This document shows, piece after piece, positions 31,924 through 32,337 of a stretch of 64,000 bases of DNA. The stretch lies in contig NZ_CP119988.1 of the NCBI RefSeq assembly GCF_029338515.1, positions 1,488,001 to 1,552,000 on the forward strand, read 5' to 3'. The number at the start of each line of letters is the position of its first letter. Within the stretch, counting starts at the first letter, position 1. The position numbers and the translations under genes are program-made. Under the pieces are notes generated by a model that saw only the letters and a list, made by a program, of their open reading frames with translations, made no database searches and was not told the origin of the DNA. Source of the stretch: Haloglomus litoreum. Its GTDB lineage: Archaea; Halobacteriota; Halobacteria; Halobacteriales; Haloarculaceae.

Positions 31924-32008
31924 GCGTGGGTAGCCAAGCCAGGCCAACGGCGCAGCGTTGAGGGCGCTGTCCCGTAGGGGTCCGCCGGTTCAAATCCGGT
32001 CCCACGCA
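31924..32008 (+). tRNA. tRNA-Leu (anticodon GAG)
   Basis: 85 nt class II tRNA. Acceptor stem GCGTGGG/CCCACGC with discriminator A, D-arm GCCAAGCCAGG..., anticodon stem CAGCG/CGCTG around loop TTGAGGG (anticodon GAG). A long variable arm contains CCC-GTA-GGG, and the T-arm is GCCGG-TTCAAAT-CCGGT. No intron and no encoded CCA. The last bases of the acceptor begin a strong hairpin in the trailer that is duplicated downstream. Confidence 0.96.
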
Positions 32009-32090
32009 CTGCATCGCGCCACACGGCGCAACGTCAGTGCGGGTGCCATCCCTTTGGGACGGCACCCACGCAAATCCTACCGAACGCTAC
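31988..32090. repeat. 103-bp direct repeat, copy A (tRNA-Leu 3' end plus trailer)
   Basis: Starts in the T-loop of tRNA-Leu and runs 82 bp past its end. Identical at every base to 32235-32337. Contains two strong nested hairpins: GCACTG(32006)/CAGTGC(32040) enclosing GCGCC/GGCGC, then GGGTGCC(32041)/GGCACCC(32067) enclosing CCC-TTT-GGG. Confidence 0.95.
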
Positions 32091-32144
32091 TCCGACAGCG
32101 ATAGCTCCAGCGCCCGGCCCCAAGCCGAACAGGCGACGCGAGAT

Positions 32145-32255
32145 GAGGGCATTGTCCCGTAGGGGTCCGCCGCCGAGCGCCCGCCAGGGCGCGAGGGTCG
32201 TCGTGGAGTGAGCGAAGCGAGCGGAACGACGGAAGTTCAAATCCGGTCCCACGCA
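32145..32255 (+). pseudogene. Broken tRNA-Leu-like copy with 62-bp insertion
   Basis: Bases 32145-32172 match the anticodon-arm/variable-arm part of tRNA-Leu (31960-31987) with two mismatches. Then 62 bp of unrelated sequence (32173-32234, with a GTCGT/ACGAC inverted repeat) interrupt the T-arm, after which the 3' end from TTCAAATCCGG to CCCACGCA is intact. No sequence pairing with CCCACGC is present upstream, so no acceptor stem can form and it should not be a functional tRNA. Confidence 0.75.
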
Positions 32256-32337
32256 CTGCATCGCGCCACACGGCGCAACGTCAGTGCGGGTGCCATCCCT
32301 TTGGGACGGCACCCACGCAAATCCTACCGAACGCTAC
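32235..32337. repeat. 103-bp direct repeat, copy B
   Basis: Perfect second copy of 31988-32090, starting at GTTCAAATCC inside the broken tRNA-like copy and ending at CGAACGCTAC. Sequence after each copy remains weakly similar for about 15 bp. Such a tRNA 3'-end duplication is what an integrase-type att pair or a short tandem duplication leaves. Confidence 0.95.

Follow-up and report, generated by a model that had tools for sequence, protein, structure and literature searches.

A partial copy of a tRNA gene is normally taken as the trace of a virus or plasmid that once integrated. The attL and attR copies that derive from tRNA-integrating elements with tyrosine recombinases have been reviewed (PMC8371274), and in Haloquadratum prophage integration is linked to partial duplications of tRNAs, 43 and 22 bp long (PMC3119063). 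The same paper describes haloarchaeal PATEs and MITEs, small non-coding elements of which PATEs have near-terminal palindromes; casposons, tRNA-Leu and target-site duplication are brought together in PMC10359463 and PMC6977970.

We analysed a window of 64,000 nucleotides from Haloglomus litoreum (bases 1488001-1552000 of a 4.7-Mb contig of genome G000), a species sampled here together with three sister Haloglomus genomes, G001, G002 and G003 (n=4 for the genus). Within it, an intact tRNA-Leu(GAG) gene, copy A (31924..32008, plus strand, ending at 32008/9; identified by ARAGORN and Rfam), is followed by a partial second copy, and the two share a direct repeat on the plus strand that runs from the T-loop to the tRNA 3′ end and on through a trailer: 31988-32090 in copy A and 32235-32337 in copy B, 103 bp with zero mismatches, separated by 144 bp. 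The sequence-only reading that drew attention to this repeat had placed it exactly to the base; stretched to 118 bp, the two copies retain 97% identity. The structured trailer A occupies 32006..32090 (plus strand) and is supported by its fold and a covarying stem. Ahead of the repeat in copy B lies a degraded partial tRNA-Leu (32117..32172, plus strand), also present in the sister genomes, with D-arm traces, an anticodon arm and a variable arm; 32144-32172 matches 31959-31987 at 27 of 29 positions, in keeping with the two mismatches noted earlier. The T-arm of copy B is broken between CCG and GTTC by a 62-bp insert in the T-loop region (32173..32234, plus strand). An archaeal tRNA intron would be expected to interrupt an otherwise complete tRNA at a bulge-helix-bulge splice motif; here ARAGORN calls no second tRNA at the locus, and copy B looks incomplete. 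D-arm traces stand upstream of its anticodon arm, and its 5′ acceptor strand is not clear in the genomes inspected by eye. Elsewhere in the genome the repeat matches further tRNA-Leu genes or short, weak stretches. A chance origin is ruled out, as a perfect repeat of 103 bp far exceeds chance, and an assembly artefact is unlikely because the arrangement is common to three sister species.

The direct repeat begins within the tRNA and takes in its 3′ end; the intact gene stands upstream, the copied 3′ end lies downstream in the same orientation, and tRNA-Leu(GAG) is a target in relatives and viruses; in these respects the locus is like attL/attR pairs. It is unlike them in that neither an element nor an integrase gene lies between copies A and B, the trailer is duplicated, a hairpin insert sits in the T-loop, and the arrangement is old and homogenised. 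We know of no counterpart to its hairpin cassettes among casposon target sites. What is shared with the latter is the theme of tRNA-Leu with target-site duplication, a lead only. PATEs and MITEs offer a likeness as small non-coding elements, with palindromes in PATEs, but the passages of PMC3119063 consulted on them mention no tRNA 3′-end copy.

The hairpins previously proposed for the trailer are supported as real structure. In trailer A, a stem of GCACTG (32006-32011) with CAGTGC (32035-32040) encloses hairpin 1 (32016-32029), and hairpin 2 has arms at about 32038-32047 and about 32061-32072; the two-hairpin fold reaches -35.7 kcal/mol, with a z of -3.4 relative to shuffles. Trailers on the same plan follow tRNA-Leu(GAG) in other genomes: of 97 loci scanned by script, among which multi-copy loci are over-represented, 47 yielded 59 such trailers. 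The trailer stem covaries across the 52 distinct trailers, in which the bases just past the last base of the tRNA pair with those preceding the second hairpin: at least two pairs beyond the tRNA are kept in 51 of the 52, the commonest states are CT/AG (30) and TC/GA (20), and the observed mean was reached by none of 2000 shuffles, which ignore the kinship of the genomes.

The insert in the T-arm had been described as 62 bp of foreign sequence; its length and position are as described, but it folds into two hairpins (stems 32177-32182/32187-32192 and 32199-32204/32226-32231) better than shuffles do (z -3.0), and so is structured rather than simply foreign. Counterparts of the insert in 11 aligned loci carry compensatory changes, with 96.4% of cells paired and 26 changed on both sides, against 88.0% and 8.4 double changes in 500 shuffles of the alignment that ignore kinship; slid versions of the structure fall to 24.7-40.8% paired, a comparison that favours our structure, which was drawn by hand from the same 11 sequences. 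The insert of copy B in G001 has an additional hairpin cassette of about 84 bp that the other three Haloglomus genomes do not have. When trailer and insert were searched against Rfam 15 at E up to 5, the sole match was the tRNA itself, and membership in a known RNA family was dropped as an explanation on that account.

Both copies, with homologous flanks, are found in all three sister genomes, and no empty single-copy locus occurs among the sampled Haloglomus genomes; because both copies are genus-wide, we reject a recent integration. Identity between trailers A and B of the same genome is 100% in G000, 90% in G003, 76% in G001 and 70% in G002. Across genomes, trailer B of G001 is 96% identical to that of G002, trailer B of G000 is 72% identical to that of G001 and 76% to that of G002, and the A trailers of G000 and G001 share 89%. 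Since copy B of G000 equals its own copy A but is unlike the B copies of G001 and G002, which are themselves alike, we infer from these sequence comparisons that copy A probably overwrote copy B by gene conversion in G000. Several other genomes have perfect A/B runs of 103-120 bp with trailers that differ from genome to genome, so that homogenisation of the two copies seems to have recurred. Copy B is an old and, it seems, repeatedly re-copied arrangement, not a fresh scar. The recent event suspected from the perfect repeat is not supported, given that both copies occur throughout the genus without an element and that their identity is best read as gene conversion.

Beyond Haloglomus, the same architecture (a trailer, then a partial tRNA, a two-hairpin insert in the T-loop, the 3′ end and a second trailer) is met again in Halorarius, Haloarchaeobius, Halorientalis, Halovivax and further genomes belonging to more than one family; many genomes do not have copy B. 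Perfect tandem core copies of tRNA-Leu(GAG) no more than 500 bp apart, at spacings of 82-281 bp, occur in at least 32 of 100 genomes among the matches listed, which are a non-random sample. Another tRNA-Leu of the window genome (contig C1, 2664724; L210) has the same architecture, its own, different trailer appearing twice with a partial tRNA and hairpins between. At a locus in another genome (L121, G170:C3), a hairpin cassette is flanked on either side by the 29-base palindromic stretch GGTGAGC..GCGAAC, as if an insertion had duplicated its neighbour.

That integrases target tRNA-Leu(GAG) in relatives and viruses is supported by several observations. The exact 21-base core is present in three viral contigs. 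The virus HSTV-2 (Hafunaviridae) and a 71-kb IMG/VR contig carry tRNA-Leu(GAG) from the anticodon arm to the 3′ end, and in HSTV-2 a gene annotated XerCD, which matches PF00589 (tyrosine recombinase), follows the tRNA part by 47 bp; the att-like site of this virus differs from the window locus in having no T-loop insert and other sequence afterwards. In genome G057 a PF00589 gene directly follows the tRNA, and a second core at a distance of 20,264 bp delimits a 20.3-kb element. In genome G167 the tRNA and a 21-bp core lie 44 kb apart; the core starts at GTTC, the same base as the window repeat, with a PF00589 match (925186-925647) near the core of this 44-kb insertion, whereas its congener G047 has an empty site with contiguous flanks that are 81% alike. 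A 31-bp piece at the left end of the G167 element resembles the trailer region of G047 (87%), and by its gene order the 44-kb stretch is provirus-like.

The suggestion that the repeat is an att scar is supported for the site, which integrases of HSTV-2, G057 and G167 probably use; the locus itself has no element or integrase. In the comparison recommended as a check, a search of relatives for an empty locus or an integrated element, the Haloglomus loci all have two copies, and elements occur in G057 and G167 with an empty site in G047. It had also been proposed that the att idea would weaken if close relatives all carried both copies without an element and no integrase targeted this tRNA; the former is what the genus shows, and the latter is contradicted by the integrases just described. 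None of the PF00589 matches of G000 falls within the window. Elsewhere on contig C1, such matches come in equal-scoring pairs, at 1223337/1323076 and 1284520/1384259 (each 99,739 bp apart) and at 3240573/3282955 (42,382 bp apart, a spacing seen in a second search too), which suggests large repeated segments or an assembly artefact. A Natrinema thermotolerans record labelled as a plasmid (CP031304.1, 374347-374416) contains a tRNA-Leu-like stretch amid ribosomal-protein and RNA-polymerase genes.

What the sequence-only reading missed is the presence of this architecture in other genera and of related units behind many tRNA genes. Copy B resembles a larger set of units built on one plan, in which hairpins lead into a duplicate of the T-loop-to-3′-end portion of the very tRNA they stand behind, and this wider set is the most interesting part of the finding. 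The window genome has 43 Rfam tRNA matches, one of them partial; of the 42 assessed, 11 have their own last 21 bases copied again no further than about 300 bp downstream (three mismatches or fewer; eight copies are perfect), one has a downstream copy of its 3′ end on the reverse strand, and none has a copy of its own 3′ end within 800 bp upstream. The pattern GGATTYGAAC-N30-60-GTTCRAATCC occurs in 43 of 59 relatives, in which the reversed pattern has no match. Across the phylum it is present in 60 of 393 genomes: 60 of 81 Halobacteriales and none of 312 others, a split counted from the kinship column. ARAGORN places a tRNA near 25 of 30 loci with this pattern. An inner-hairpin motif, AGTCGCGCGCAGCG-N0-30-GAGCACGTC, gave 35 matches in 26 of the 59 genomes, with an ARAGORN tRNA at 23 of 30 fetched loci, a few of which are shared with the preceding set, and with a direct repeat of at least 14 bases around 28 of 32 occurrences. 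The inner stems of the units vary with compensation. Loci L300-L309 (for example C1 4253218 in G000 and C1 1596847 in G001) contain a palindromic stretch similar to the inner part of the units with no ARAGORN tRNA, in a repeated context adjoining GTCGTGGCTG-like sequence.

Direct repeats found around the units lie within about 120 bp and never across a long element (260 bp scanned upstream), no unit was seen by eye in 20 stretches around integrase genes, and a 20-base piece taken from the unit has no exact counterpart in viral contigs. With only local repeats, and integrase neighbourhoods free of units, we dropped the idea that the hairpin units flank full-size elements, and the units may not be element remnants. 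In the literature searched, largely that outside subscription journals, att duplications are described and units of hairpins plus a tRNA end were not found. The insert in the window and the units behind other tRNA genes may have a single origin, as suggested by their common hairpin types and position.

The set of units changes by gain and loss, and perhaps by exchange from one tRNA to another. At tRNA-Arg(TCG), G000 and G002 each have a single unit type, not the same one, and both types occur in G003. The unit at the gene at 3924231 in G000, a tRNA-Lys by sequence for which ARAGORN gives no call, is 88% identical to the unit at tRNA-Arg(TCT) of the same genome and 78% identical to that at the matching gene of G002, a likeness that could reflect either mobility or conversion between loci. 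At tRNA-Lys(CTT) the downstream flanks do not align, so that no clean pair of empty and filled sites could be obtained for a unit.

How copy B arose can be weighed against this background. Our favoured account, to which we would give an even chance, is that part of tRNA-Leu(GAG) was duplicated long ago through tyrosine-recombinase integration, with the element since lost and copies A and B homogenised. An element would have integrated by way of a tyrosine recombinase with the tRNA 3′ end as core, and may have carried in a core and trailer of its own, as the G167 insertion may have done; an intact tRNA would have been left upstream and an attR-like copy downstream, the element would later have been lost, and gene conversion would then have kept the copies alike, most recently from A to B in G000. 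This account draws on the integrases and elements that use tRNA-Leu(GAG), on the G167 core at the same base, on the trailer-like piece at the left end of that element and on the empty G047 site, and further on the two copies and their identities across the genus, on the recurrent architecture with its conserved pairing and on the 11 of 42 tRNA genes with a copied end; we infer integration rather than duplication as the source of copy B, as well as the loss of an element and any role of the hairpins. Against integration stand the lack of an element between the copies and of an empty locus in the genus, and the full trailer in both copies is explained more simply by tandem duplication; the units of the wider set, seen only locally, may moreover not derive from elements. 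A tandem duplication of tRNA-Leu and trailer by unequal recombination, with no integrase involved, in which the 5′ half of the second gene decayed, its T-loop gained hairpins and conversion kept the 3′ end and trailer alike, would also fit the D-arm traces upstream of the copy B anticodon arm and the tRNA-Leu at 2664724, with its own trailer twice; we nevertheless consider it unlikely, though worth serious attention, as no clear 5′ acceptor strand is visible in copy B, the left limit of the better-preserved copies is near that of viral att sites, and the 21-bp core of the 44-kb insertion begins at the first base of the repeat.

The compensatory changes in insert and trailer stem, and the architecture's occurrence in several genera, could instead point to a conserved structured RNA, in which partial tRNA, insert and trailer would be kept because of what their transcript does; it might, for instance, act in tRNA 3′ processing or be a small RNA. 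On the comparative sequence evidence we think this improbable: the sequences match no Rfam family, many genomes lack copy B, the insert of one sister has an additional hairpin cassette, and structure at the level of DNA could equally preserve hairpins. We are still more sceptical of a small non-autonomous mobile hairpin that inserts at tRNA T-loops and duplicates the target's 3′ end, copy B being its decayed product. Units behind many isotypes do end in the host tRNA's own 3′ end, the tRNA-Lys unit is closest to a tRNA-Arg unit of its own genome rather than to its sister counterpart, and species differ by single units at tRNA-Arg(TCG), but such a hairpin has no assigned enzyme, the candidate empty and filled sites cannot be aligned cleanly, and gene conversion between loci would give a similar picture.

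For the lineage as a whole, a tentative proposal, which we regard as somewhat more doubtful than probable, is that Halobacteria have a lineage-restricted family of tRNA-tail units of about 100 bp, each with two hairpins and a closing copy of the host tRNA from T-loop to 3′ end, which would accumulate in arrays behind tRNA genes of many isotypes, be gained, lost and exchanged between them, and be made by some recombinase or duplicating mechanism, the window locus being a derived form specific to tRNA-Leu. Copy B is old, its structure has been conserved, and gene conversion seems to have rewritten it. Roughly one in four tRNA genes of G000 is followed by units of comparable design, whose motif is present in most of the Halobacteriales sampled and missing from all other genomes of the phylum in the sample. 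Mobility would make the units a new type of tRNA-bound element; as RNAs, they would constitute a family that Rfam does not contain. In both cases, a tRNA duplicated in part in a haloarchaeal genome is not on its own proof of a lost provirus.
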